Assembly: GCA_009928955.1 (NCBI GenBank) | Contig: SABN01000022.1 | Span: forward strand, 1-38,407 | DNA from: Opitutia bacterium | GTDB lineage: Bacteria; Verrucomicrobiota; Kiritimatiellia; CAIQIC01; Lenti-01 | DNA length: 38,407 nucleotides | Reading direction: 5' to 3' | Shown: positions 3 to 35,913 of the stretch, piece after piece | Layout of the letters: each line of letters starts with the position of its first letter | How positions within the stretch are numbered: position 1 is the first letter of the stretch | Position numbers and translations under genes: made by a program | The notes under the pieces: generated by a model | The model's input: the letters and a program-made list of their open reading frames with translations, nothing else | Databases searched by the model: none | Told to the model about the DNA's origin: nothing

Positions 3-587
<585 letters not shown>

Positions 588-604
588 CTCATCTTCCGGC
601 TGTT

Positions 605-648
605 CACTTGAACATTGGATATTGAATATTGGAGATTGGAGATTGAGA
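605..648. repeat. AT-rich micro-repeat (TTGGA/TTGAATATTGGA)
   Basis: Short degenerate repeats of ATTGGAtATTGAATATTGGAGATTGGAGATTGAG lie just before the DUF2752 gene. They contrast sharply with the GC-rich surroundings. They may contain promoter elements (TTGAAC occurs at the left end), but no convincing -10 box was found. Confidence 0.5.
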
Positions 649-655
649 TCCCTTC

Positions 656-1255
656 ATGTCCCGTTCCCGCAACACCTGGCTCGTTTATGTCCTCCTCGCC
701 CTCTTCGCCCTCGGCGCGATCGCCGTCCTCTTCCTCTTCGATCCCGCCGCCCACGCCTTCTATCCCCCCTGCCCCCTCCACGCCCTCACCGGCCTCGACT
801 GCCCCACCTGCGGCGGCCTCCGCGCCGCCCACCTGCTCCTCCGCGGACACTTCCGCGCCGCGTTCGCGCTGAATCCGTTTCTGTTCTTCGCGCTGCCCGT
901 CGCCGCGCTCTTCCTCCTCCGCCCCTGCCGGGTCCGTTGGCTGCCGTGGGCCGCCCTCGCCCTCCTCCTGGCCTGGTTCATCTGGCGCAACCGGTCGTTG
1001 GCCGACCGCCAACCACGAACCTCCCTCCATGAACCAGCTCGGCGGGGGGGGGTCGTGGAAGGCCGCGGGACCCCGCGAACGGAGCGGGAACTCGCGGCCC
1101 GCCGTTGTTCCACGCGCGATGGAATATCCAGCCCGGTTGTTCCGCGCCATGGTCGCGTCGCCCCATGGCGCGCAGAACGCGGCGGGGGGCGCTCCGCCTA
1201 TTTCTGCAGCGCGAACGTGCCCGATCCGAAAGTCCCGTTCCAATCGCCGATGTAG
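656..1255 (+). CDS. DUF2752 membrane protein
   Basis: Residues 1-115 match the DUF2752 family: an N-terminal membrane helix (WLVYVLLALFALGAIAVLFLF), the signature CPLHALTGLDCPTCGGLRA with paired cysteines, then two further hydrophobic helices ending near LLLAWFIWR. The function of the family is unknown. The last 75 or so residues (after RNRSLADRQ) are encoded by DNA that looks like intergenic hairpin-rich repeat and overlap, on the other strand, the relic at 1198-1323. The natural C-terminus was therefore probably near 1010 and the reading-through tail is not conserved. No strong ribosome-binding site precedes the ATG, which follows the AT-rich repeat directly. Confidence 0.75.
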   Translation: MSRSRNTWLVYVLLALFALGAIAVLFLFDPAAHAFYPPCPLHALTGLDCPTCGGLRAAHLLLRGHFRAAFALNPFLFFALPVAALFLLRPCRVRWLPWAALALLLAWFIWRNRSLADRQPRTSLHEPARRGGVVEGRGTPRTERELAARRCSTRDGISSPVVPRHGRVAPWRAERGGGRSAYFCSANVPDPKVPFQSPM

Positions 1256-1323
1256 GCCGACGACGACGCGTTCACGTGTCCGTCCAGTTCGATCCACGCG
1301 GGGCTCCCGTTCACCGTCAGCAT
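1198..1323 (-). pseudogene. 3' remnant of a gene truncated by the IS3 element
   Basis: On the minus strand an open frame enters from the IS left end and stops at TAG, 1198-1200. It encodes about 41 residues with protein-like composition (LTVNGSPAWIELDGHVNA, then GDWNGTFGSGTFALQK). It resembles the beta-rich, Gly/Ser/Asn-rich tail of a secreted or surface protein. The rest of the gene would lie to the right, but DNA right of the IS (after 2640) does not continue this frame, so the 5' part has been lost. The family is not recognised. Confidence 0.55.
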
Positions 1324-1398
1324 TGCGGTTCCCCCGTAAAACTGGACCGTTTTCAAAGAGAGTCCTCTGGTCTACAACAGACACGTGGAGGACGACGA

Positions 1399-1665
1399 AT
1401 GAAGGGCAAACGGTTCACGGAAGAGCAGATCATCGGAGTGCTGAAGGAGGCAGAAGCGGGCTTGCCTCAGCCTGACCTGCTGCGCAAGCACGGCATCAGC
1501 CAGGGCACGTTCTACCGCTGGAAGGCGAAGTACGGCGGGCTGGACGTCAGCGAGGCGCGGCGGTTGAAGTCGCTGGAGGACGAGAACCGGCGGCTGAAGC
1601 GGCTGGTGGCCGACCAGGCGCTGGACATCCAGATCCTGAAGGACATCAACTCAAAAAAATGGTGA
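1399..1665 (+). CDS. IS3-family transposase OrfA
   Basis: This 88-residue DNA-binding subunit has an N-terminal helix-turn-helix of the HTH_8 type (RFTEEQIIGVLKEAEAGL through GTFYRWKAKYGG). A leucine-zipper-like coiled coil follows (LKSLEDENRRLKRLVADQAL) and ends in SKKW. It binds the inverted repeats and, when translated through the slippery site, becomes the N-terminus of the OrfAB transposase. GTGGAGGACGACG precedes the ATG and contains GGAGG at good distance. The product closely resembles OrfA of the IS407/IS51 group. Confidence 0.92.
   Translation: MKGKRFTEEQIIGVLKEAEAGLPQPDLLRKHGISQGTFYRWKAKYGGLDVSEARRLKSLEDENRRLKRLVADQALDIQILKDINSKKW
1653..1659 (+). promoter_or_regulatory. A-AAA-AAA slippery site for -1 frameshifting
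   Basis: Seven adenines, read as A AAA AAA in the orfA frame, lie two codons before the orfA stop. The orfB frame is -1 relative to orfA, so slippage here yields the fused OrfAB transposase typical of IS3 elements. Confidence 0.8.
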
Positions 1666-2585
1666 CGCCCACCGCCCGGCGGGACGCGGTCGGCCACATG
1701 ATCCAGGCTTACGGGATCAGCCGGCGGCGGGGTTGTGGGTTGGTCGGACTCCGCCGGAGCAGTCTGTACTACCAAGGCTCGAAGCGGCCGGATGGGCCGT
1801 TGCGGGATGCCATCCGGGAGGTGGCCGGGCGGCGCAAACGCTGGGGCGTGCCGATGATCGCCCGCTATCTGCGCCGAAAGGGCTGGAAGGACAACTACAA
1901 GCGGATCGAACGGATCTACCGCCAGGAGGGCTTGCAGGTGAGAAGACGGAAACGGAAGAAGATGGCGGCCGTGGCCCGGACGCCCTTGGAGCAGACGACC
2001 CGGTCGAATCAAGTCTGGGCCATGGACTTCGTTCACGATGCGGCGCAGGGCGGCCGCAAGCTCAAGCTACTGACGCTGATCGACTGCCATACGCGGGAGT
2101 GCCTGGCCATCGAGGTAGACAGTTCCATCGGCGGCCACCGGGTGGCGCGGGTCTTGGAGGCCATCGGCGCCGAACGGGGCCTTCCCGGGCAGATCAGGAC
2201 CGACAACGGCCCTGAGTTCACGGGGAACGCGCTGGAAGCCTGGGCCTATGCCCGCGGCGTGAAGCTCGACCCCATCGAGCCCGGCAAGCCCAGCCAGAAC
2301 GGATACATCGAAAGCTTCAACGGAACGCTGCGCAACGAATGCCTCAACGAACACTGGTTCACGGGCATGGCGGATGCCCGGCAAATCATCGAGGAATGGC
2401 GAGTGGACTACAACGAGGAGCGGCCCCACAGCTCCCCGAGCGACCAGCCCCCCGCCGAGTTCGCCCGGAGCGAAAACCGTCCCGACCTCGCCTCCGCTCC
2501 GACGAGCTCGGGGTGGCCCATTCTCGCGGAGCCGAGGTCGGGAGAACCACTTGAGGCTGGACTGCCAGCCCAGGAAAAAGCATAG
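1659..2585 (+). CDS. IS3-family transposase OrfB (DDE catalytic domain)
   Basis: The 308-residue frame carries an HTH_21 region (AIREVAGRRKRWGVPMIARYLRR) followed by an rve integrase core. The catalytic residues are in WAMDFVHD, RTDNGPEF and NGYIESFNGTLRNECL, with exactly 35 residues between the second Asp and the Glu (D-35-E), as expected for IS3. The core is intact, so the element may still be active. The first ATG overlaps the slippery run, and normal expression is expected through frameshifting from orfA. The C-terminal 45 or so residues (after PPAEFARSE) are atypical and rich in Pro/Ser. Confidence 0.93.
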   Translation: MVTPTARRDAVGHMIQAYGISRRRGCGLVGLRRSSLYYQGSKRPDGPLRDAIREVAGRRKRWGVPMIARYLRRKGWKDNYKRIERIYRQEGLQVRRRKRKKMAAVARTPLEQTTRSNQVWAMDFVHDAAQGGRKLKLLTLIDCHTRECLAIEVDSSIGGHRVARVLEAIGAERGLPGQIRTDNGPEFTGNALEAWAYARGVKLDPIEPGKPSQNGYIESFNGTLRNECLNEHWFTGMADARQIIEEWRVDYNEERPHSSPSDQPPAEFARSENRPDLASAPTSSGWPILAEPRSGEPLEAGLPAQEKA

Positions 2586-2640
2586 GGAAAATCAGGCCAT
2601 GACTCTCACTGGAAACTGTCCAGGAAATGGGGGAACCGCA

Positions 2641-2690
2641 GGGTCAGTCCTATAATCTAGAAAGGGGGAAAGGGGTCAGTCCTATAATCT
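2641..2690. repeat. Two direct repeats of an 18-bp GGGTCAGTCC unit
   Basis: GGGTCAGTCCTATAATCT occurs at 2641-2658, touching the IS right end, and again at 2673-2690, separated by a G/A-rich spacer. Units beginning GGGGTCAG often surround REP-associated tyrosine transposase loci in environmental bacteria. No such transposase is visible here, so the assignment is only a suggestion. Confidence 0.6.
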
Positions 2691-2757
2691 ATAATTTCCG
2701 TCCGCCGATCCCCGCCCCCCAAAAAACTCGCCCGGTCTTTCCACCCCTGCCCCCCGC

Positions 2758-3612
2758 TCAATTTGGCATTTTCTCGCAGTGTTTGCGCAGAAACTCCTGA
2801 TCGGGCCGAAATCGTTTCGGCATGGAGAGGGGTTGCCCCTCGAATGCCCTAAACTGCACCTGAAAAGCCTGATTGCCGTAGTATTCATTCAATACAGGAC
2901 TGAAAACCATCCGGTAGTCTTCGTCGAACGAGATTAAGTGCCGGTCAAACGCTGCATCGTAGGTTGCGGACAGACATAGCCCGTTGGCGGGATTGAGCCG
3001 GTTGGCTTCGTCATCCGCCCATCCTATGATATGACTCGCCCTCAAAACCTCGGGCACGTTCAGCCCGGACACGCAGCATTGCGTCCGGTACTCATCCAAG
3101 ATCAGTTCCCGGAAGAAATCCTGATTCACGCGCGCCTTGGCTGAGCAAATCCGATCCTTCCCCTCCCGGCTCGCATAATCCACCCCGCGGTCAACCAGCA
3201 GCCGTTCGGCCTTGCCGATCTCCTGTTCGTTAAGACGTCGCACCAACTCTCCCGGGTCACCGCCCTGTTGCGCCAACGCCCATAACTTCTGCTTGTAGGG
3301 CGCCAGAATCAGGAACTCCTGATAGCTTCTCAGCGCCGCCGAATAAAACCCGCCACGCCAATAGCTCGCGGGGGCTTCCCCGCCAAACATCCCGGCATCC
3401 TCCCGCCGCTGCTGTTCCAGCACATGCTCGTAGAGATCCCCGATCCGTTCGGGCGATTCCACGGCAAAGACATCCGCGCAGTCCCGAAATACCTGTGTCT
3501 TGGCTAAGATCGGCCCCAGCAATTCCAATGCTCTTATATATGAACTGGCCTTGTTGCTTCCTTCAATGCCCGCATCTCGCAAGTATCGCGAATAGTGGTC
3601 CCTGGCCGTCAT
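2758..3612 (-). CDS. HNH_2-type restriction endonuclease
   Basis: A 284-residue protein with a C-terminal HNH_2 nuclease domain (residues about 178-240): CCVSGLNVPEVLRASHIIGW, then NGLCLSATYDAAFDRHLISF. The HxxxW and N...D.H pattern forms the beta-beta-alpha-metal site. The N-terminal half contains an EAPASYWRGGFYSAALRSYQEFL block also seen in other HNH restriction enzymes, probably for DNA recognition. The start at 3612 is chosen because TGAGG precedes it and because the longer frame would run through the upstream gene. It is the last gene of the minus-strand operon, 19 nt after the first HNH gene. It is probably a second nuclease of the restriction-modification system. Confidence 0.78.
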   Translation of the reverse strand: MTARDHYSRYLRDAGIEGSNKASSYIRALELLGPILAKTQVFRDCADVFAVESPERIGDLYEHVLEQQRREDAGMFGGEAPASYWRGGFYSAALRSYQEFLILAPYKQKLWALAQQGGDPGELVRRLNEQEIGKAERLLVDRGVDYASREGKDRICSAKARVNQDFFRELILDEYRTQCCVSGLNVPEVLRASHIIGWADDEANRLNPANGLCLSATYDAAFDRHLISFDEDYRMVFSPVLNEYYGNQAFQVQFRAFEGQPLSMPKRFRPDQEFLRKHCEKMPN

Positions 3613-3631
3613 ATACCTCACAAGAAAATAA

Positions 3632-4192
3632 TTATTTATACTTTTGGGTAAGCCACGCCAGAACCGCCCTTTGATCGTCAATTGTCGCTCGGCGAATACT
3701 TGCCAACAACGCAATGCGGGATGGTTTTTGCGGCGCGATATTTGAAAGCCCTTCGTTGCAATTCGTACATACAGCACGAAGATTTGATCTATCGTCCGAG
3801 CCACCTTTAGATTTATCTGTTATATGGCCCATCGTGAGCCGCACTGTACGCCCGTTATGATAAGGGTCGGGATCTCCGGCGGCCATTCCACACATTTGAC
3901 AGGTATATCCGTTTCGCTCCAAAACAAAAGCTCGTGTTTCCTTTGATATATCACGCGCAAATGCAGGTCGCTGTTTTTTGCTCTCAAGAATATATTGACC
4001 TGGTTTTAAATTCGCACGATCCTTGTGCGACAAAACTGGCCACCCCTGTTCATCCCTCAATTCGCGCAATCGACGCCCCCACTCTGCCCTCCAGCCAGAC
4101 GCCTCTTGTATTTCTTTCGAGTCAACCACCTCGCCCACATGCAAAAGGAGATAGTCGAGAATTAACTGTTTGGAGCCTTTGTTTTTCGGCAT
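3632..4192 (-). CDS. HNH endonuclease of the restriction-modification operon
   Basis: A 186-residue protein with an N-terminal winged-helix-like segment (LILDYLLLHVGEVVDSKEIQ, then RELRDEQGWPV) and a C-terminal classical HNH zinc-finger nuclease. The nuclease pattern is CQMC, MGHITDKSKGGSDD, SNLRAVCTNCN, with paired CxxC knuckles and the catalytic GHI. It overlaps the methyltransferase 3' end by 31 bp, and GAGGA lies 6 nt before its ATG, so the two are translated in tight linkage. By position it is the likely cognate restriction nuclease. The recognition sequence cannot be read from the protein. Base composition here is clearly lower in GC than in flanking genes, a sign of horizontal transfer. 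Confidence 0.8.
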   Translation of the reverse strand: MPKNKGSKQLILDYLLLHVGEVVDSKEIQEASGWRAEWGRRLRELRDEQGWPVLSHKDRANLKPGQYILESKKQRPAFARDISKETRAFVLERNGYTCQMCGMAAGDPDPYHNGRTVRLTMGHITDKSKGGSDDRSNLRAVCTNCNEGLSNIAPQKPSRIALLASIRRATIDDQRAVLAWLTQKYK

Positions 4193-5199
4193 TTGTATCC
4201 TCGCTTGGCCTTAGCTTCCATAAGCACGAGTTGGCCAGTCTTTACTTCTGGGAGTGCTATTTGTTTCCGATTGAGCGCGCTTAAAATCGAGGTTGCAACG
4301 GCTCGCGCAACTAATGGAGGAAAGGCATTTCCAATTTGCCGGTATGATGCTGTTTTCCCTCCCATGAATTGCCATTCGTCAGGAAAACTTTGAATTCGGG
4401 CAGCCATTCGAATAGTCAACCGGGGAAGACCGTCCATTGGAAAATCAATGCTTGGCGCGGAATTAGCAATTCCAAGGCCATCCACGCCTAACTTGCGCCA
4501 CTGCTGCTTCGCACGTGTAGGTCCTAAATCTGGACCTCCGTGCTTTTTTGATCCGCCAACTAAGGTGGGGGCAATATCCGACGCCTTGGCAGCCCACGCC
4601 TCCGCACCTGGCCATCCATTTTCCCCCATCAAATCAATAAGAGCCTCTCCGACGGAACATCGATGGGGATGGGTCCGCGGCCAAGAATAATATGGAAAAT
4701 CAGCTTCACGAAGAGCGACAATGATAAAACGTGGGCGTAATTGAGGAACGCCATAATCGGACGCCTCTAAAACACGGCTCGTTACGGCGTACCCCATAGA
4801 GGACAACTGGGCAAAAAGCACACGTCGGTAGTCTTCGAATTTTGCAGAATCCAACCCCTTTACATTTTCGAGCATAACTGCGCGGGGGCGGGCTACCCGA
4901 ATAATATCAAGAGTCGCCGGAAACATATCGCGCTCATCGTTCCCGCCAAGTTGCTTGCCGGCAATGCTGAATGGAGGGCAAGGCACGCCCGCAGCCAAAA
5001 GATCAACCCCCTTGAAGCTTTCCGCCCGCAAGTGCCGAATGTCCATCTGAAGCACATTCCAATGCGGTCGGTTTTTGCGCAGCGTTGTACAGAACAATGG
5101 TTCATATTCGACAACACCGAGATGATGAAATCCCGCCATTTCCAAACCCAGCGCCTGGCCACCTCCACCCGCGCACAATTCTAAAGCAGTAAGGTTCAT
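4162..5199 (-). CDS. DNA (cytosine-5) methyltransferase
   Basis: A 345-residue type II modification enzyme that transfers a methyl group from SAM to C5 of cytosine. Motif I is ALELCAGGGGQALGLEMAGF. Motif IV is GVPCPPFS with the nucleophilic Cys. Motif VI is ENVKGL, motif VIII RPRFIIVAL, and motif X QIGNAFPPLVA near the C-terminus. The target-recognition region lies between about residues 190 and 280. The start at 5199 (MNLTALEL) is preferred over the longer frame because it follows the regulator stop by 5 nt and motif I then begins at the usual distance. It protects host DNA from the HNH nuclease(s) encoded downstream. Confidence 0.93.
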   Translation of the reverse strand: MNLTALELCAGGGGQALGLEMAGFHHLGVVEYEPLFCTTLRKNRPHWNVLQMDIRHLRAESFKGVDLLAAGVPCPPFSIAGKQLGGNDERDMFPATLDIIRVARPRAVMLENVKGLDSAKFEDYRRVLFAQLSSMGYAVTSRVLEASDYGVPQLRPRFIIVALREADFPYYSWPRTHPHRCSVGEALIDLMGENGWPGAEAWAAKASDIAPTLVGGSKKHGGPDLGPTRAKQQWRKLGVDGLGIANSAPSIDFPMDGLPRLTIRMAARIQSFPDEWQFMGGKTASYRQIGNAFPPLVARAVATSILSALNRKQIALPEVKTGQLVLMEAKAKRGYKCRKTKAPNS

Positions 5200-5204
5200 C
5201 GGTT

Positions 5205-5432
5205 TTACGCCTTTGCAATGGCCCGGCAGACTTCCGCCACGGTGCAACCAAGCCCATTTGCCAGCCGTGAAAGGCTCACGATGCTTGGATTTCGGACTGC
5301 CCGTTCGATGCCACTGATGTAGGAGGGATCGAGGCCAGAGAGTTCAGCCAGCGCCTCTTGCGTGAGCTTCTTCTGCTCGCGCAGCTCGCGAACATTCTTC
5401 CCCAGGGCCACCAGAACCGGGTTCTTTTTCAT
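5205..5432 (-). CDS. XRE-family C protein (restriction-modification controller)
   Basis: A 75-residue helix-turn-helix protein: LGKNVRELREQKKLTQEALAELSGLDPSYISGIERAVRNPS with the typical Q..LA...G.....IS..ER pattern, followed by a short dimerisation helix. Small XRE proteins encoded just before a methyltransferase are usually C proteins, which time restriction against modification and autoregulate. It is the first gene of the minus-strand operon, 5 nt before the methyltransferase. Two direct repeats upstream (5456-5482) look like its operator. A general phage-type repressor is the alternative, but the context argues for a C protein. Confidence 0.85.
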   Translation of the reverse strand: MKKNPVLVALGKNVRELREQKKLTQEALAELSGLDPSYISGIERAVRNPSIVSLSRLANGLGCTVAEVCRAIAKA

Positions 5433-5455
5433 GGCCCATAGAATGCCCCCGGGAT

Positions 5456-5482
5456 GGACGATAAGTCCACGGACGATGAGTC
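5456..5482 (-). promoter_or_regulatory. Candidate C-protein operator (two C-boxes)
   Basis: Two 12-bp direct repeats, GGACGATAAGTC and GGACGATGAGTC (plus-strand spelling), are separated by CAC. Each has GGAC/GT(C)C arms around a five-base centre, like the GACT...AGTC C-boxes of known C-protein operators. They lie 24-50 bp upstream of the regulator start codon, where autoregulation would act. Confidence 0.6.
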
Positions 5483-6172
5483 ATGATCAGACTGTCAGAC
5501 TGAAGGCTGTCAGGCGGTTAGCCCAACCGTGAACCGCTGAACCCTGAACCGCTGAACCCTGCCCCCCCATCCCGTGAATCCTGTCCATCCCGTCAAAAGC
5601 CCCCCTCCCGGATTCCGCCCCCCCCATCCCGCGCTCGCGTTCCCCCCGCGCCCCTTGCGCCTCTTGCGTCAATGAAATCTGCTCCCCTTCGAGGTCCCGG
5701 TTCCCCCCCAGGCGAATTTCCCCCGCAGGTGGACAAGCGCGGCGTTTCTAAAGCGGACGATTCACGAACGGCTCAATCCTCGCCCCATCGGATCATCTCC
5801 CGCACTTCCCGCCATCGGTCCCCAATATTCCCCCTCCCACAACCCCGCTCTCTTTTGCCCCCCAAGGCAGAACTATCCTTTGACAATTTTAGACTCACGC
5901 TGACAACTTCCCCGGCCACATTCAGTGATTCCGCTATATCCTGATTGTGCAAATAGCCGCCGTGGCCATGGCGAAGTCATTTTGCCTCCCAGTCGTGACA
6001 GCCAGGTGTCGAACGGCCTTTCAATCCAATTCTCATCTAACCTCGACTGCAAATGAACTGGTAATTAACGATTGGCGAATACGGTCCTAACCGCCATCTG
6101 AGAGATTTGCCAATCTGTATTCAAAGCGTTTTCTTGTGCGTATGTCCTCGATCATCAAGAGAGGTGGGCGTC
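5483..6172. other. Gene-free, repeat-bearing intergenic stretch
   Basis: I see no convincing gene in these 690 bases. The stretch holds a 15-bp tandem repeat (5530-5559) and C-rich low-complexity DNA to about 5850, then AT-richer DNA (5870-6170) that leads into a small ORF. A 90-codon open frame at 5672 has Pro/Ser-rich, non-protein-like composition and was not accepted. Confidence 0.6.
5530..5559. repeat. Tandem repeat, 2 x TGAACCGCTGAACCC
   Basis: A perfect 15-bp unit is repeated twice (5530-5544 and 5545-5559); each unit itself contains two TGAACC half-units. It is one of several short text-like repeats in the gaps of this window. Confidence 0.85.
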
Positions 6173-6367
6173 ATGAAAAATAGCAACCAGAAGTGCGACA
6201 ATGGATTGAGAATCGAGATCTCCATTGGCGATAAGTTGGCCCGGTTCCTTGGCGCCATGCTTGGGCTCACCGTTTATCTCGTGTTGATGGACAAATTCGG
6301 GGGGTTGTCTGAATCTTTGCAGAGCCTTTGCATTCTGATCGGTAATCTCGGAAAGATCATCCCATGA
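6173..6367 (+). CDS. Hypothetical 64-residue protein with one membrane helix
   Basis: Not recognised. The ATG at 6173 is chosen because GAGAGGTGGGCGTC precedes it with a usable Shine-Dalgarno core. An in-frame ATG at 6107 exists, but the intervening codons look non-coding. The product has a polar N-terminus (KNSNQKCDNGLRIEISIGDKLAR), one hydrophobic segment (FLGAMLGLTVYLVLMDKF) and a C-terminal hydrophobic stretch. GC content is lower than in neighbours. It stands alone between the restriction-modification operon and a repeat block. Confidence 0.5.
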   Translation: MKNSNQKCDNGLRIEISIGDKLARFLGAMLGLTVYLVLMDKFGGLSESLQSLCILIGNLGKIIP

Positions 6368-6381
6368 ACTGCGACGATCCC

Positions 6382-6590
6382 AAGACGAGAGACTGTAGAC
6401 GATAGACCACAGACTAGAGACTAGGGGTTTCTGGAGGGAGACGACCGATCACAGACTAGAGACTGCAGACGATAGACCATAGACTGTAGACGATAGACAA
6501 CAGACTACAGACTTGGGGCTTCTGGATCCGCCGGCTCAAGTCTATGGTCTATTGGTCTCCCGTCTACGGTCTCCCGCCTGCCCCGAGGCC
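6382..6590. repeat. AGACTGTAGACGATAGACC repeat block with inverted copies
   Basis: Variants of AGACTGTAGACGATAGACC and AGACTAGAGACT repeat along 6382-6512. The reverse-complement version (AGTCTATGGTCTATTGGTCT, then GTCTACGGTCTC) occupies 6538-6577, so the block can fold into long hairpins. It lies between two converging genes (plus strand to 6367, minus strand from 6591) and could act as a bidirectional transcription end. Confidence 0.75.
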
Positions 6591-6992
6591 CTAGCGGAAC
6601 AGGAAGTAGACCACCAATCCGCCCGCCGACAGAAGGGTGAGGAACAACTGGGTCTGGTAGTTGTAGTCCGAACGGCGGCGGGCCCGCTTGAAGCTCAGGA
6701 TCAGTCCGATGGCGCCGACCGCCACGCCCGCGACCATGATCGGCAGGATCGCATGCCCCCCGCCGCTGCGGACGGCTTCCGTGGAAACCGCATCGATGTT
6801 CTGGGTCACCTTGCTCCGCTGGAGGCTGTCGCCCAACGAGACGATGACGAGGAAATAGATGATCAGCAGCGGATAGACCAGCACGGTGAGATAGCGGAAG
6901 ACCCGGGCCCAGGCGTCCGGCTTCCTGCGGCGGCGATCCGGCATGCCCGGCTTGTAGGCCGCCGGTTGCGATTGTCCAACGGCTGGTTCCAT
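6591..6992 (-). CDS. Hypothetical inner-membrane protein, three helices
   Basis: 133 residues. A basic, Pro-rich N-terminus (DRRRRKPDAWARVFR) leads into three hydrophobic segments: YLTVLVYPLLIIYFLVIVSL, AILPIMVAGVAVGAIGLILS and TQLFLTLLSAGGLVVYFLFR. The ATG at 6992 is fixed by a strong AAGGAG six nt upstream on the minus strand; the longer frame is non-coding. No domain is recognised. It is transcribed divergently from the PAS-GGDEF gene that begins about 200 bp away. Confidence 0.75.
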   Translation of the reverse strand: MEPAVGQSQPAAYKPGMPDRRRRKPDAWARVFRYLTVLVYPLLIIYFLVIVSLGDSLQRSKVTQNIDAVSTEAVRSGGGHAILPIMVAGVAVGAIGLILSFKRARRRSDYNYQTQLFLTLLSAGGLVVYFLFR

Positions 6993-7153
6993 GGAAAACT
7001 CCTTGTGTTGCGATGATTCCGAACTGTGGCGCAGTATAGAAACGCCCCGGCGCAGAACGCAACAGGTTTCAGCCGGGCCCGGCCTCCGCTCTCCGTCTTC
7101 CGTTCCCCCCGTTCCGCGGGCTCCGGAGAGAAAGGCCCCCGACCCCTCCCCGG

Positions 7154-30173: not shown

Positions 30174-30866
30174 ATCGGATGGGGGCACGGGGGATTTCAC
30201 CCCGTGCCCCTTCCACACCACCGGACATGCGGTTTTCCGCATCCGGCGGTTGAACTGGGCCTCCACCCTCACGGGCTTCTGCAAAACAATGGCACGGTAC
30301 ACGTATTTCGCTCCTGCCATTCTTTTCATTGAACAGGTCACCCGACTTCTCGCGGCGGGGATTTGGGAAACTACAAGCGGCCTTGCGAATGAATCCACAT
30401 TCGCGCCACCACCTGCCTTCAGGCTTTGCCCGGTCGGGCATGGTCCTTCGGTTTCAGTTCCCTGTAGGTCTTTCCCCACAACGGAGGTCGGTCTGTTTTC
30501 TCCAGTTCTTCGGCCCTTCGCTCCTGCCGCCTTTCGACGGCTCTCTTCACTACTACGGCCTCTGCTGACTCCTCCGCCGCTCTCGCGCCGGAGGTCTCCC
30601 CAGGTAAGGTGCATGAACTTTCGGCCCGCGCCGCCAGGCTCTACCCGATCTGGCTTTCGGTAACGGTTGGATTTCGCGTTCCCTAGCACGCTCATCGCCC
30701 AGATCGAGCCTCGCTGCCTGTTCGTGTTCCTGCGGTCGGACCTTCGCTACGGACTTCTTTCAGCTCGCTCCCTCGCGGGCGCGGCCTTGTCTTTCGCTAC
30801 GGTTGCTGTCACTGCTCTCCGGTCTTCTCCTTTCAGATGACAAGTTCATGCCCATGCTGGGCACAC
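30174..30866 (-). mobile_element. ORF-less group IIC intron
   Basis: Read on the minus strand, it starts GTGTGCCCAGCATGGGC, the classical group II 5' end. It contains GGAGTCAGCAGAGGCCGTAG (30553-30572), a block conserved in group IIC introns such as that of Oceanobacillus iheyensis. A 34-nt domain V (30217-30250) is followed by a strong domain VI-like stem (GGGGCACGGGG/CCCCGTGCCCC), and it ends ...CCGAT. At 693 nt it has no room for a reverse transcriptase, and none is present. The 5' exon is a hairpin (H2), as usual for class C. GAGGG at 30770-30774 can pair as EBS1 with the last exon bases CCCTC. Removing 30174-30866 restores TGGAGGGACGGG, the hairpin-repeat consensus, which fixes both ends. 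Confidence 0.85.
30217..30250 (-). ncRNA. Group II intron domain V
   Basis: This 34-nt hairpin has a 9-bp lower stem (ACCGCCGGA/TCCGGTGGT, one G-T pair), a 2-nt bulge on the 3' side, a 5-bp upper stem (TGCGG/CCGCA) and an AAAA loop. The CGC catalytic triad follows the first base of the core, as in group IIC. Confidence 0.82.
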
Positions 30867-30869
30867 GAG

Positions 30870-31105: not shown

Positions 31106-31237
31106 CTGGGGGCAGGACAGCCCGGAAGCCGTTGTTGTTGTTGGCGTTGTCCGGGTTGTCGTTGTTGCGGTTGCCCACCCGGCAGTTGTTGGCGTTGTTG
31201 TTCCAACTGCCGCCGCGATCCACGCGGTTGGAGCCCT
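31106..31237 (-). repeat. DGR template repeat (TR)
   Basis: 132 nt, read on the minus strand, 54 nt after the reverse transcriptase stop. It aligns without gaps to the VR at 33135-33266. All of the roughly 25 mismatches fall on adenines of this strand. In the target frame it would read RGGSWNNNANNCRVGNR and onward, with AAC codons at nearly every variable site, the codon type favoured in DGR templates because A-changes there never make a stop. It has no start codon of its own and serves as RNA template. Its 3' end shares CTTCCGGGCTGTCCTGCCCC with the VR. Confidence 0.97.
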
Positions 31238-31290: not shown

Positions 31291-32295
31291 TCAAGATGCG
31301 CGGCTGGTCTGCGCCACGACTTGACGCCGGAAGCCGGCCGAATCCGCAAAGCGGACGTACGAAAGCAGCGCCTCCGCATGCCGGGCCAGATCGGATTCCG
31401 ACCAACGGCCGGTTTCGAATTCCTGCTCGAACCCCGCCAAACGCCGACCAAACCGGCGGCGGGCACGTGGCCCCAAATCAAGCCTGTGCGCAAATATCCG
31501 GTATCCCAGAAAGGGCAACCCCCGCGCACTGCGGTTGAGCTGGACGTCGTCCTTGAGCCGGAGTTGAAGACGGGACTCCAAAAAGGCCGTAATTGCCGAC
31601 AAATGACCTTTCAACGAATGCTTGTCGGATGCCCAGAGGACGAAATCGTCCATGTACCGGACATACCCCGCCACCCGCAGCGTCTCCTTGACGAAATGGT
31701 CGAGATGCCCCAGATAGAAATTCGCCAGATGCTGGGAGATCAGGTTGCCGATGGGCAGCCCTTTGCCGGGGGCCATCTCGTAGCTTGAGAGAATCCGGCC
31801 AAGGAGCGCCAGCAAATCGGCATCCTTGAACCGGCGGGCCAGAAGGTCAAGCACCGTGGCATGGCCGATCGAATCGAAGTATTTGCGGATATCCAGCTTG
31901 AGATACCAAGGATGGCGGCGCGCGAAGGATTGCGCCCGCAAGACAGCCTCGTGCAGGCCCTTGCCCTTGCGGCAGGCATACGAATCGTGGATGGCAAACC
32001 GCTCCAACGCCGGCTCGCATACGTTCATGACGGCATGGTGCAGCACGCGCTCCGGAAACGCCGCCGCGCAAATCGTCCGTTCCTTGGGGTCGTGCACGGT
32101 AAAGAAGTGGTAGCGTCCCACGTTTACGGCGCGGGCACAAAGCTGATCGCGCAGCCGGCGCAAGTTCTCGTCCAGCCGGACCGCGTATTCGATCACTTCC
32201 TTCTTCCCGCGTTTCCCTCGGGCCGCTTTCAGATAGGCCAGCCGCAGGTTTTCGGGCTCGGCGATCCGGTCGTAGAGACCACCCGCCCGTTTCAT
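31291..32295 (-). CDS. DGR reverse transcriptase
   Basis: 334 residues, the usual length for DGR enzymes. Motif order: YHFFTVHDPKERTICAAAFP (RT2), WYLKLDIRKYFDSIGH (RT3, first catalytic Asp), GLPIGNLISQHLANFYL (RT4, with the DGR-specific 'SQ' in place of the group II 'PQG'), YVRYMDDFVLW (RT5, YMDD catalytic pair at 214-217) and LPFLGYRIF (RT7). No maturase or endonuclease domain is present. It copies the TR RNA with errors at adenines and the cDNA replaces the VR. The start overlaps the HRDC gene stop (ATGA, 32292-32295), so both are co-translated. Confidence 0.96.
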   Translation of the reverse strand: MKRAGGLYDRIAEPENLRLAYLKAARGKRGKKEVIEYAVRLDENLRRLRDQLCARAVNVGRYHFFTVHDPKERTICAAAFPERVLHHAVMNVCEPALERFAIHDSYACRKGKGLHEAVLRAQSFARRHPWYLKLDIRKYFDSIGHATVLDLLARRFKDADLLALLGRILSSYEMAPGKGLPIGNLISQHLANFYLGHLDHFVKETLRVAGYVRYMDDFVLWASDKHSLKGHLSAITAFLESRLQLRLKDDVQLNRSARGLPFLGYRIFAHRLDLGPRARRRFGRRLAGFEQEFETGRWSESDLARHAEALLSYVRFADSAGFRRQVVAQTSRAS

Positions 32296-32849
32296 TTTTC
32301 CGCCCGGTTTTCCGGAACGGCCGACGCGGAGGTCGGCCCTCCATTCCCGCCCTCTGGAGGGACGGGTTCCACCCCGTCCGGCTGTGGGGTTCCGGTCAAC
32401 GCCACGACCGCCAGCACCGCCGCGCCGTATTTGCCGGCCTTGGCGTCGCCGAGGCCTTCGATCTCCTTCAGGCCCGCCAGGCTCTCCGGGCGCTTCGCGG
32501 CGATGCCCGCCAACTGCTCGTTCGTCAGCACCGCATAGACTGGTATGCCCTCTTGTTCGGCCGTTGCCTTGCGCCAATCGCGCAGGCGGGCGAACAAGGC
32601 GAAATCCCCGGGCGAGAGCACCTCCTTGTAGTCCACGCGCGGCTTGCCGCCGCGCCCCTCGCCCGGACCCGGACCGGACGGAGCCGGTCCCTCCAGAAAT
32701 TCCACTGCCAGCGCCCAGTACGAGTTCTCCCCGTTCGCCACGAATTCCCGGTGCGCCGTCAGCACCCGGTGCGACCGCAGAAAACGGTTCAGATCCTCCT
32801 GCAGGCCCGCGTCGCCGCGGGCGGGTATGGCGTAAAAGCTCAGTTGCAT
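32292..32849 (-). CDS. HRDC-domain DGR accessory protein
   Basis: 185 residues. The N-terminal 60 residues (MQLSFYAIPARGDAGLQEDL, then HREFVANGENSYWALAVEFL) are found in similar DGR-linked proteins. An HRDC nucleic-acid-binding domain spans about 85-155 (FALFARLRDWRKATAEQEGI, then AKRPESLAGLKEIEGLGDAK). HRDC proteins are known partners in DGR cassettes where the Avd protein is missing, and no avd-like gene is visible here. The last 30 residues (PQPDGVEPVPPEGGNGG...) are encoded by an inserted pair of hairpin repeats (32319-32379), so the native C-terminus has probably been replaced. The start at 32849 is chosen by domain fit. Confidence 0.85.
   Translation of the reverse strand: MQLSFYAIPARGDAGLQEDLNRFLRSHRVLTAHREFVANGENSYWALAVEFLEGPAPSGPGPGEGRGGKPRVDYKEVLSPGDFALFARLRDWRKATAEQEGIPVYAVLTNEQLAGIAAKRPESLAGLKEIEGLGDAKAGKYGAAVLAVVALTGTPQPDGVEPVPPEGGNGGPTSASAVPENRAEK
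32319..32379. repeat. Co-varying hairpin pair H3/H4
   Basis: H3: GGCCGAC-GCGGAG-GTCGGCC then CTCCA (32319-32343). H4: TGGAGGG flank and GGACGGG-TTCCAC-CCCGTCC (32355-32379). The facing CCCTCCA and TGGAGGG flanks are themselves complementary. The pair lies within the 3' end of the HRDC reading frame. Confidence 0.85.
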
Positions 32850-32877
32850 GGGCCGCTTGCAAAACGAAGGCCAAAAT

Positions 32878-32958
32878 GGTCGGGGTGGAACCCGCCCCTC
32901 CATAAAACCGCCCAAACGGCCTGTTTTCGCCTCTGGAGGGACGACTTCCACGTCGTCC
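32878..32958. repeat. Co-varying hairpin pair H5/H6
   Basis: H5: GGTCGGG-GTGGAA-CCCGCCC then CTCCA (32878-32902, one mismatch in the stem). H6: TGGAGGG flank and GGACGAC-TTCCAC-GTCGTCC (32934-32958). H6 differs from H2, H4 and H7 in both stem arms at once, so pairing is kept. The pair lies between the target gene and the HRDC gene. Confidence 0.85.
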
Positions 32959-33052
32959 GGGGCCGTTTTGCAAGAGGCTTGCATGTTTCACCATTTGCCG
33001 GGTGCAAGCCCCCGGACCCCCGGATTGAAAATTCCCATTTTCTTGCCTCGTC

Positions 33053-33123: not shown

Positions 33124-35913
33124 TCACGGCCGACCTGGGGGCAGGACAGCCCGGAAGCCGCGGAAGTAGTAGGCGTAGTCCGGGGAGCCGGAGCCGCGGG
33201 AGCCCACCCGGCAGCGGTAGGCGTAGTAGTGCCAACTGCCGCCGCGAGCCACGCGGGAGGAGCCCTCATATCCCGGGTACCAATCGAAACACCACTCCCA
33301 CACGTTGCCCGCCATGTCGTGCAGCCCATAGCCATTCGCCGCAAACGAACCCACGGGCGAGGTGTAAGGATATATTCCATCGTTGTATGTCGGGTGATAG
33401 CCCCGCGTCGGGCTCGTGTCGTAGTCGTATGAACTGGAACTGTAGTAATTCGCCCGCGCATGCTGGATCGTGTCTGAATCGCTCCACGGGAAACGGCGGC
33501 CGGTGGCGCCGCCTCGAGCCGCGTATTCCCACTCCACGTCCGTTGGCAATCGGTACCCGGCGGCGGAGGTCTGGACGACGTCGTTGCTCTGTCCGCCCTT
33601 GTACACGGCCCCGTTGACCGTATAGACCGGTTGCCGCCCCTCCTTCTGGCTGCGGGCGTTGCACCACTTCGCCACGTCCCACCAGTTCACCGTGTGCACC
33701 GGGTGGTTCGCCGCCTTGCCGCTCCCCGCGTTATCAAAGCTGTAGCCGTTGGCAATGGCCCACGTGTACACCTCGTCCCACAGCGCCTTCGTCACCTCGT
33801 ACTTGTCCATGTAAAACGAGTTCACGGTCAGGCTGTACGCCCCATAGTCCGGGTCCGTCCCCGCATTCGTCCCGCCGGGGATCAGGACCATGCCGGCGGG
33901 CGGGGCGGAGGTTGAGCCGCCGCCGGTGACCGTGACCGTGCAGGAGGTCTGCACGCTGCCGACATCGTTGTAAGCCCTGACCGCATAGGTCCCGGCATGG
34001 CCGGCACTGGCCTGCCGGATGGCATATTCGGGCTGGGTGGCGCCGACAATGCGCGTACCGTTGAAATACCACCGATATTGAGGATCCGGAATGCCCGAGG
34101 CCCAACCGGATAGGGTCACGGAGCCGCCAATTGGCACGGTGCGGTTGGGGAAAGTGCCCGAAAAAACGGGAGCGGAGGAGGGGTCCGGATAGTTGGTGCT
34201 CCACAGCGGCCAGCGCTCGTCGTATAGGGTCCATTCGGGCTTTTCTCCCCAGTTGTCGCCCCATACCCGGCTCTCGATGCCCAAGGTGGAGGACAGGCCG
34301 AAATAGAGCGCCCAGTCGTATTGGAGGGGGTTCAACTGGAACGAGCCTTCCAGTTCGGTGTAGGGCACCACGTCGGCCCACAGGCCGGCCAGGCTGTAGG
34401 CCAGCACCGTCAGCTTGGGCTGCACGTAGACCTTGGCGTGGGCGTTCCCTTCCAGTTGCCACGTGATGGGTTCGGCCTCCAGCACGATGTCCGGATTCCG
34501 AAAGCCGTGGGTCCATTGGTTCTGCCGCAACTGCACGGTGAACTCCAGCTCCTTGCCCATGTCCACCACGGTGTGGGCGTTGCCGGCCACGCTGGCGTCG
34601 TATTCATAGCCCGCGTGGAGTTCCACGACGACTTCGATCCAGACCGGCACCGGCCCGATCATCCCGCCGAACACCTTGCTGATGGGCTGGATCAGGGGAA
34701 ATTCGTCGCCACCCTCGACGGCGGCATAGAAAAGCGCCTCGGGCTTGATGTGGATGGTCAATTCGCTGCGGGCGGAGGCGTCGAAGGATTCCAGCCCACC
34801 CCAGCCGATGGCCGCCGCCACGTCTACGTCGGCCGTCAGCAGCCAGCTGCACTCCGGCAGCCACAGCTTCAGGTTGGGATGCTCATAGAGGATGGTTCCG
34901 CCCAGGTCGTCGCCGAATTCGGCGTGCAGCAGGTTGGCCTCCACGCCCACGCCGCGCACCGACAGCCCTGGATCGGCCGGCTGGAAATCCACGGCGGCAA
35001 AAGACCCGGCCGTCAGCAGATTGGTCAGCGAGATGTCCTCCGTCCAGGCCGTGATGCGCAGCAATCCGGCATCCACCGCGTTCGAGACGACTGCGCGATA
35101 GAAGGGATAGGCGGCATCGAAACTAACCAGCCGGGTCCCGTTGCTGATCGCGGGCGGCGCGCCTTCGTAGGAAAACACCACCGCGTTGGAGGTCACGTCC
35201 ACGATCTGCAGGGCGGGCGAACCATCCTTGGGCTTCACGTTGGGCAGCGTGCGCAGGCGTCCGCTGGCTGTCCGCTTGCTGCCGGCAGGGGCCGTCAGGG
35301 CCAGGAACTCGCCTGCCGTTTCCGGGGTGCGTTCCAGCTCGAACGTCCACGTGTAGTTGCTTAAGGCATGTCCCAGGGTGTCGGCGATGGCCAGGGAGTT
35401 GCTGATCGTGGCGCCCGGCGCTCCCAGCGCCGCCGGCGGCGTGAAGATTACGGTGTTGTTTGTCCAGGCGAGATACGGACTGGCATGTCCCATGTTGGTC
35501 CAGCCTGCAATGGAAAGCGTCAACGACTGGGTGTCGATGCCTGCGGCATCCTCCAACGTGATATAGACCGCAGCATTCGTCGCCACCGCGACGGCATTGG
35601 AGGCCGGCACCAGCGCCGAGACTTCGGGCGGTTCCAAGTCCGGCCGGGCGATGCGGTAGAATTGCTTGCCCGCACCGGTCGTCACCGTGTTGGAGGCCAG
35701 CACGTTGGAGAACGATACCCCGGCCGGCGTGAGATTCGTCCAACTGGGCGTCACCAGATCGGGCGTGGCCATGACCTGATAGGTTTTCTCCGGCACCGCC
35801 TCCCAGTCCAGCCGGACCGAACCGGGCCCGGCCGGTTCGATTTCCACCGCCCCGCCCCATGCTCCAGCCGCAAGCCCCAGAACCAATCCCGCCAAGCCCA
35901 ATGTTTTGATCAC
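33124..35913 (-). CDS. DGR target: secreted protein with Ig-like and FGE-sulfatase domains
   Basis: 929 residues from a GTG start with GGAGAA six nt upstream. An N-terminal signal peptide (IKTLGLAGLVLGLAAGAWG) is followed by a 'VPEKTYQVMATPDL' strand module, a large beta-rich region (about 90-600), and an Ig-like domain at about 605-685 (YRWYFNGTRIVGATQPEYAI, then AGTYAVRAYNDVGS). The C-terminal FGE-sulfatase (C-type-lectin-fold) domain runs from about 690 (MVLIPGGTNAG, YEVTKALWDEV, YRLPTDVEWEYAARGG, MAGNVWEWCFDWYPGY). The VR encodes residues about 883-927, on the ligand-binding face of this fold. It is probably an exported, surface-exposed binding protein whose tip is diversified. TTGCCA (35974-35979) and CATAAA (35950-35955) may form its promoter. 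Confidence 0.95.
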   Translation of the reverse strand: MIKTLGLAGLVLGLAAGAWGGAVEIEPAGPGSVRLDWEAVPEKTYQVMATPDLVTPSWTNLTPAGVSFSNVLASNTVTTGAGKQFYRIARPDLEPPEVSALVPASNAVAVATNAAVYITLEDAAGIDTQSLTLSIAGWTNMGHASPYLAWTNNTVIFTPPAALGAPGATISNSLAIADTLGHALSNYTWTFELERTPETAGEFLALTAPAGSKRTASGRLRTLPNVKPKDGSPALQIVDVTSNAVVFSYEGAPPAISNGTRLVSFDAAYPFYRAVVSNAVDAGLLRITAWTEDISLTNLLTAGSFAAVDFQPADPGLSVRGVGVEANLLHAEFGDDLGGTILYEHPNLKLWLPECSWLLTADVDVAAAIGWGGLESFDASARSELTIHIKPEALFYAAVEGGDEFPLIQPISKVFGGMIGPVPVWIEVVVELHAGYEYDASVAGNAHTVVDMGKELEFTVQLRQNQWTHGFRNPDIVLEAEPITWQLEGNAHAKVYVQPKLTVLAYSLAGLWADVVPYTELEGSFQLNPLQYDWALYFGLSSTLGIESRVWGDNWGEKPEWTLYDERWPLWSTNYPDPSSAPVFSGTFPNRTVPIGGSVTLSGWASGIPDPQYRWYFNGTRIVGATQPEYAIRQASAGHAGTYAVRAYNDVGSVQTSCTVTVTGGGSTSAPPAGMVLIPGGTNAGTDPDYGAYSLTVNSFYMDKYEVTKALWDEVYTWAIANGYSFDNAGSGKAANHPVHTVNWWDVAKWCNARSQKEGRQPVYTVNGAVYKGGQSNDVVQTSAAGYRLPTDVEWEYAARGGATGRRFPWSDSDTIQHARANYYSSSSYDYDTSPTRGYHPTYNDGIYPYTSPVGSFAANGYGLHDMAGNVWEWCFDWYPGYEGSSRVARGGSWHYYAYRCRVGSRGSGSPDYAYYFRGFRAVLPPGRP
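33135..33266 (-). repeat. DGR variable repeat (VR)
   Basis: 132 nt at the 3' end of the target gene. Compared with the TR, about 25 bases differ, and all are adenines of the TR coding strand changed to T, C or G. Bases that are not adenine in the TR are unchanged. Typical codon changes are AAC to TAC, TCC, GGC, CGC, TTC or CAC. The shared region ends on one side at GAGCCCT (plus strand) and on the other at CTGGGGGCAGG, eleven bases before the stop. Confidence 0.97.

Follow-up and report, generated by a model that had tools for sequence, protein, structure and literature searches.

The window, by which we mean the whole 38,407-nucleotide stretch of DNA analysed here, comes from a genome of the class Kiritimatiellia and carries a diversity-generating retroelement (DGR) whose target gene raises two questions: what kind of protein is diversified at its tip, and where have the parts of that protein come from? 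The original prediction described the target as a large exported multi-domain protein, not a bare lectin-fold gene, that would hold its variable tip outside the cell on a long stalk in a binding or adhesion role. The reading that we favour, with a probability of about 0.66, is that a cellular DGR diversifies the C-terminal tip of an exported target built on a scaffold with exchangeable heads, likely for recognition or adhesion outside the cytoplasm.

The DGR cassette and its probably exported target

The cassette is arranged on the minus strand in the order target, HRDC, RT and TR, and comprises the following features.

33124..35913, minus strand: DGR target protein gene, 929 aa, GTG start (ORF and translation; layout matched in loci L065 and L066)
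35854..35913, minus strand: signal-peptide-like N-terminus MIKTLGLAGLVLGLAAGAWGG, residues 1-20 (hydropathy and by eye)
35635..35841, minus strand: N-terminal module, residues 25-93 (similar to proteins C160 and C194 of the own genome)
35341..35634, minus strand: Big_5 bacterial Ig-like domain, residues 94-191 (Pfam PF13205, E 3.8e-07, above cut-off)
34174..35340, minus strand: uncharacterised core, residues 192-580 (without Pfam, NCBIfam, PHROG or PDB match)
33928..34170, minus strand: Ig_3 / I-set immunoglobulin-like domain, residues 582-662 (Pfam E 4.5e-08 and 2.1e-07, above cut-offs)
33145..33897, minus strand: FGE-sulfatase (C-type lectin type) head, residues 673-923 (Pfam E 3.4e-44; aligned to solved FGE chains)
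33135..33266, minus strand: variable region (VR), residues 883-927 (132 nt aligned to TR)
32292..32849, minus strand: HRDC accessory gene (PF00570, E 1e-20)
31291..32295, minus strand: DGR reverse transcriptase (RT), 334 aa (RVT_1 E 2.4e-15; PHROG reverse transcriptase E 7.8e-100; DGR RT tree)
31106..31237, minus strand: template repeat (TR) (132 nt aligned to VR)

TR and VR differ at 25 of the 132 aligned nucleotides, and all 25 mismatches fall on the 36 adenines of the template, an outcome with a chance of about 1e-18 under random placement. The VR lies within the last 45 codons of the target, where 21 codons contain a template adenine and 17 are changed. It was the only VR for this TR recovered by a DNA search of the own genome, and no additional one was found elsewhere in it. 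The HRDC gene, whose stop overlaps the start of the RT as read from the sequence, shares 74% identity with its counterparts in L065 and L066; HRDC proteins are established accessories of DGRs (PMC4891356, PMC10053308). In the RT tree, the RT of the target stands among RTs that mostly have their own TR/VR pair and FGE target (32 of 44 loci). The adenine-specific TR/VR pair, the adjacent RT of the DGR group and the HRDC accessory protein identify the locus as a DGR, and the FGE-type domain with its C-terminal VR places the target, by sequence, in the FGE subtype of putative C-type-lectin-fold DGR targets. By analogy with known DGRs, the RT would make a copy of the TR that is erroneous at adenines, this cDNA would take the place of the VR, and the 21 codons that the sequence pattern delimits at the very C-terminal end of the target would thereby be randomised.

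Two further observations concern the surroundings of these genes. Interspersed palindromic repeats with cores like CCGTCCCTCCAG sit inside or beside DGR genes: the C-terminus of HRDC holds one in frame (window 32355-32960 and others), and in L065 (12826-12936) such a repeat interrupts the DGR RT midway, adding about 37 residues without a change of frame. An ORF-less group II intron (30174-30867, Rfam D1D4 and domain V/VI, ends set by eye) lies about 240 bases past the TR on the same, minus, strand and adjoins a stem-loop belonging to the interspersed repeat GGACGGGgtggaaCCCGTCC. The intron is the sole D1D4-3 match in the own genome, in whose assembly (90% complete) no intron-encoded protein was found, since the only two RVT_1 genes are both DGR RTs. 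The intron was considered as a regular DGR part and rejected, because it is missing from the second DGR locus of the same genome (L017) and from 42 other DGR loci; we treat it as a chance neighbour.

Regarding the target itself, the open reading frame runs from a GTG at 35913 to a stop at 33124. The predicted extent, the 929 residues, the signal-peptide-like start and the DGR were all recovered, with the amendment that the strand is minus. That a lectin-type (FGE-sulfatase) diversified domain ends the protein and that an Ig-like domain precedes it was borne out by Pfam. Within every target domain dN is well below dS in pairwise comparison (dS being near or at saturation), which, together with the same layout in L065 and L066, indicates that the target is not a chance ORF.

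The top 19-residue hydropathy window of the whole target covers residues 5-23, and the best one beyond the N-terminus reaches only 1.6 (residues 414-432). The target is thus predicted to be made with a signal peptide and to leave the cytoplasm, and its hydropathy does not resemble that of a cytoplasmic protein, the location that would have spoken against the original prediction. As to an anchor, cysteines sit only at residues 355, 658, 751, 875 and 901, so that there is no lipobox; the sequence scan likewise gave no LPXTG and no second membrane segment (none above 1.6 mean hydropathy outside the N-terminus). The target therefore has the signal peptide of a surface-anchored adhesin (hydropathy and by eye), and the scan revealed no membrane or wall anchor of these kinds, so that surface display is a possibility only. 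Presentation outside the cell on a long stalk may be envisaged, with the variable tip at the extreme C-terminus, and a periplasmic or released protein is equally compatible with the data. The word stalk is only a name for the body: AlphaFold2 models from three-row alignments had a mean pLDDT of 29.8 for residues 186-582 and 28.3 for the full length, low even for the FGE head.

The lack of lipobox, anchor and second membrane segment also suits a soluble sensor or decoy, periplasmic or released, of a conflict (immunity-like) system instead of a surface adhesin. In the Thiohalocapsa study one DGR target is predicted to be secreted or at the surface, with a signal peptide and no TM, and DGR targets are read there as antigen sensors (PMC10907252). 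The own genome offers a related case. Its assembly (345 contigs, 90.15% complete, 7.94% contamination) contains two RVT_1 genes, that of the target and one on a 5005-bp contig, C108 (L017), which carries a second complete DGR with TR, RT, HRDC and an FGE target; its TR and VR, 137 nt long, show 18 mismatches, 18/18 at template adenines. This second target is cut by the contig end, and what remains has one hydrophobic segment and a coiled region, with the FGE domain as its only Pfam match. Visual comparison suggests a resemblance between its start and the end of the L022 protein kinase; Pfam detected no kinase in the remaining part. Kinase and caspase DGR targets do exist in the class. Against a sensor or decoy, no conflict-system module was seen beside the target of the window, where the upstream neighbour is an amidohydrolase gene and the downstream ones are a PIN gene and a gene that we presume to be Mfd-like. 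We regard the sensor or decoy as unlikely, and retain recognition or adhesion by an exported target as the favoured reading.

Are such targets exceptional? Several domains and a C-terminal VR are typical of DGR targets, and in the majority of cellular target clusters a TM or signal peptide is present at the N-terminus (Roux et al. 2021, PMC8144416). With the RT of the target as query, matches were obtained in 48 of 345 genomes of the class, at 61 places; 44 loci, corresponding to 45 of these places, were examined and the other 16 places were not included. A script found an A-specific TR/VR pair ending in an FGE-type protein at 32 of the 44 loci. L065 is among the 12 without such a target by script, and failed because its VR is out of frame. 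Near its 5' end this VR (L065 is the same locus as L037) lacks one base relative to the TR, and the final portion of the head is therefore frameshifted, whether by natural loss or by assembly error. After four targets open at the 5' end had been set aside, 28 complete targets remained, in 23 of which a signal peptide or N-terminal anchor was read (22 by script, minus the kinase L101, a false call, plus L110 and L113 by eye). Open frames of at least 900 aa were present in 8/28. Their bodies are diverse by Pfam, with protein kinase (L101, L108), caspase (L128), InlB-like repeats (L099, L103) and List_Bact repeats (L133). The target of L128 (4459-6603, plus strand) combines a caspase (Peptidase_C14) with a diversified FGE head behind a signal-peptide-like start. 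An exported multi-domain DGR target is thus ordinary and not itself new, and the contrast with a bare lectin-fold gene, offered as unusual by the original prediction, describes the norm both in the published survey and in Kiritimatiellia. It should be noted that none of the literature matches listed reports on Kiritimatiellia DGRs, and a term search did not find the class name in the main text of PMC8144416 or PMC10907252.

A scaffold family of Kiritimatiellia

The long region said to belong to no recognised family proved to be shorter than proposed, as residues 94-191 form a Big_5 Ig-like domain. Residues 192-580 matched no family in Pfam, PHROGs or NCBIfam and no PDB sequence, and the N-terminal module (25-93) matched no Pfam family. 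One candidate for the core, DUF7223 of Pfam, was set aside as a weak lead: it was hit by one of seven members (E 0.00036) with 18.7 of 27 bits, below cut-off. A phage origin of the target was likewise rejected, no relative having been found in viral contigs.

With residues 190-580 as query, 9 of 96 relatives matched, and a profile of seven core members matched 17 of the 345 class genomes and 9 of 387 genomes of the phylum, all nine in Kiritimatiellia; each count includes the own genome. As judged from these searches, the core is an undescribed protein family, restricted to Kiritimatiellia among the genomes searched. L065 and L066 are complete DGRs, with HRDC, RT and TR, whose targets share the body, the Ig domain and the FGE head; their cores are 68.5% and 54.2% identical to that of the window. 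The other core relatives stand apart from DGRs in the stretches fetched. Four of them have FGE heads (L043, L138, L139, L140), and in L142 the core is followed by Laminin_G and Lectin_C, in each case with no DGR in the fetched stretch. No FGE domain was found in L039-L042, L141 and L143 (L042 by eye, the others by scan), and L044 gave a weak core match and a poor FGE hit; L056, L061 and L063 were left out of the follow-up. On a 7.1 kb contig without a DGR, L139 has an open frame of at least 2209 residues (477-7103, plus strand) with four FGE domains after the scaffold core. A search for a remote VR in the terminal part of the G146 scaffold protein (L053) gave no A-specific match to any of the three DGR loci retrieved from the genome concerned. 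These comparisons show that the body (N-terminal module, Big_5, core and Ig) is a lineage-specific scaffold, secreted by prediction, which also occurs without DGRs and with other C-terminal domains.

Is the core a passive stalk, or a working domain such as an undescribed enzyme or binding domain? It is conserved beneath different C-terminal domains, its halves have no repeat relationship (no internal repeat by hhalign, probability 0.10), and no other part changes as slowly between the window and L065 (dN 0.26, compared with 0.27-0.53 elsewhere), all of which would suit a working domain. Between L065 and L066, however, it is the head that changes least, not the core, and the match to an enzyme family that would have undermined the stalk was absent from Pfam, NCBIfam and PDB sequences for residues 192-580. 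A working domain seems to us to fall clearly short of an even chance, and we keep scaffold as the description of the body.

Probable mosaic ancestry of the head

The regions of the target were compared with L065, L066, L139, L140 and L103 by the best local identity to the window.

Core: L065 68%, L066 54%, L139 31%, L140 27%, L103 short match only
Ig: L065 66%, L066 59%, L139 39%, L140 29%, L103 38% (over 40 residues)
Residues 673-800: L065 49%, L066 45%, L139 83%, L140 75%, L103 72%
Residues 801-882: L065 81%, L066 77%, L139 69%, L140 74%, L103 77%

In the head tree, the head of the window groups with that of L139 (100/94) and then with L103, L140 and L102 (98/93), while the heads of L065 and L066 are placed together in another clade (99/100). 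For L139 and L140 the assemblies that supplied the heads are incomplete. In the RT tree, the window, L065, L066 and L098 cluster at 100/100, L098 being placed next to L066 (99/90), and TR identity to the window is 86% for L098, 85% for L066, 89% for L065 (over 98 nt) and 79% for L103. The L098 target is cut by its contig and has a head of another type, 35% identical over 88 residues at 673-800; no core match was found in the L098 genome. Body and cassette are therefore associated in three loci, the initial half of the head stands apart, and the L098 cassette serves a different head.

Uneven rates could in principle imitate such a pattern, if the heads of L065 and L066 had simply diverged fast. 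Indeed, in the alignment both carry an insertion of extra residues within the 673-800 part, which depresses their identity there. Yet these two heads are 85.5% identical to each other although their cores are only 61.5% identical, their identity to the window falls to 45-49% at 673-800 and returns to 77-81% at 801-882, and the head tree keeps them apart with starred branches. We consider a rate artefact quite improbable. The first half of the head appears to have an ancestry unlike that of body and cassette, the head having been swapped between proteins. From the discordant trees we infer that scaffolds may exchange heads by recombination, the TR-matched tip staying with the cassette. Domain shuffling has already been described in DGR targets (PMC10907252), and intragenic recombination in them has been suggested (PMC8144416). 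As far as sequence comparison can tell, the original prediction had missed two things: body and part of the head do not share one ancestry, and other heads occur on members of this body family.

A wider scheme for Kiritimatiellia is possible, and we put it forward tentatively, at somewhat less than even odds. One secreted scaffold family (Big_5, new core, Ig) would serve as a standing display platform for exchangeable heads (FGE, tandem FGE, laminin-G with C-type lectin, and others), with DGR cassettes plugged onto some of the FGE heads; binding diversity would then arise at two levels, by exchange of whole heads and by adenine hypermutation of the tip.

Head function and comparison with known systems

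The best sequence matches of the head are solved FGE chains, which with the FGE-sulfatase match might suggest an active formylglycine-generating or related enzyme. The cysteine pair of FGE, which we take to be the catalytic, copper-binding pair, is nevertheless not kept: one cysteine falls in a three-residue gap and the other aligns with an alanine, both inside the hypermutated VR. Enzymatic activity of this type is hardly conceivable. Relative to FGE / SUMF1 (e.g. PDB 5ssy, 6s07), the head shares the fold family by sequence, lacks the catalytic cysteines and has a hypermutated tip. Their absence, together with known DGR targets, argues for a binding role, as the original prediction reasonably proposed: its most likely task is to bind a ligand, not to modify a protein. 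Such a head, keeping the fold family, could act outside the cytoplasm by recognising or adhering to other cells, particles or phages.

The target resembles TvpA of Treponema denticola (PDB 2y3c; sequence match, E 1e-17) in its FGE/C-type-lectin-type head, C-terminal VR, export and HRDC accessory (PMC4891356). TvpA, however, is described with a lipoprotein signal, whereas the target here has no lipobox and its head follows a body of about 670 residues; the HRDC gene, which precedes the RT here, is placed between TR and RT in T. denticola. The cellular targets of Roux et al. 2021 (PMC8144416) are likewise multi-domain, with a C-terminal VR, an N-terminal signal peptide or TM and adhesion- or carbohydrate-type domains, and the core family sets the present target apart from them. 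The DGRs of Thiohalocapsa PB-PSB1 also combine domain shuffling with hypermutation; there, a duplicated C-terminal region occurs on distinct N-termini, whereas here body and cassette remain associated and the difference lies in an internal part of the head (PMC10907252).

Taken together, what is new here is the undescribed scaffold family and the mosaic target. A lineage-specific scaffold is added to the known DGR targets, and the locus provides a single example in which the apparently separate histories of body, head, tip and cassette can be traced. Should this be borne out, the locus would be a natural experiment on how DGRs acquire new targets, in which body and RT remain the same, part of the head changes and the TR-matched tip stays. 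As Kiritimatiellia are rich in DGR-type RTs (48/345 genomes), they are a good place in which to study target acquisition.
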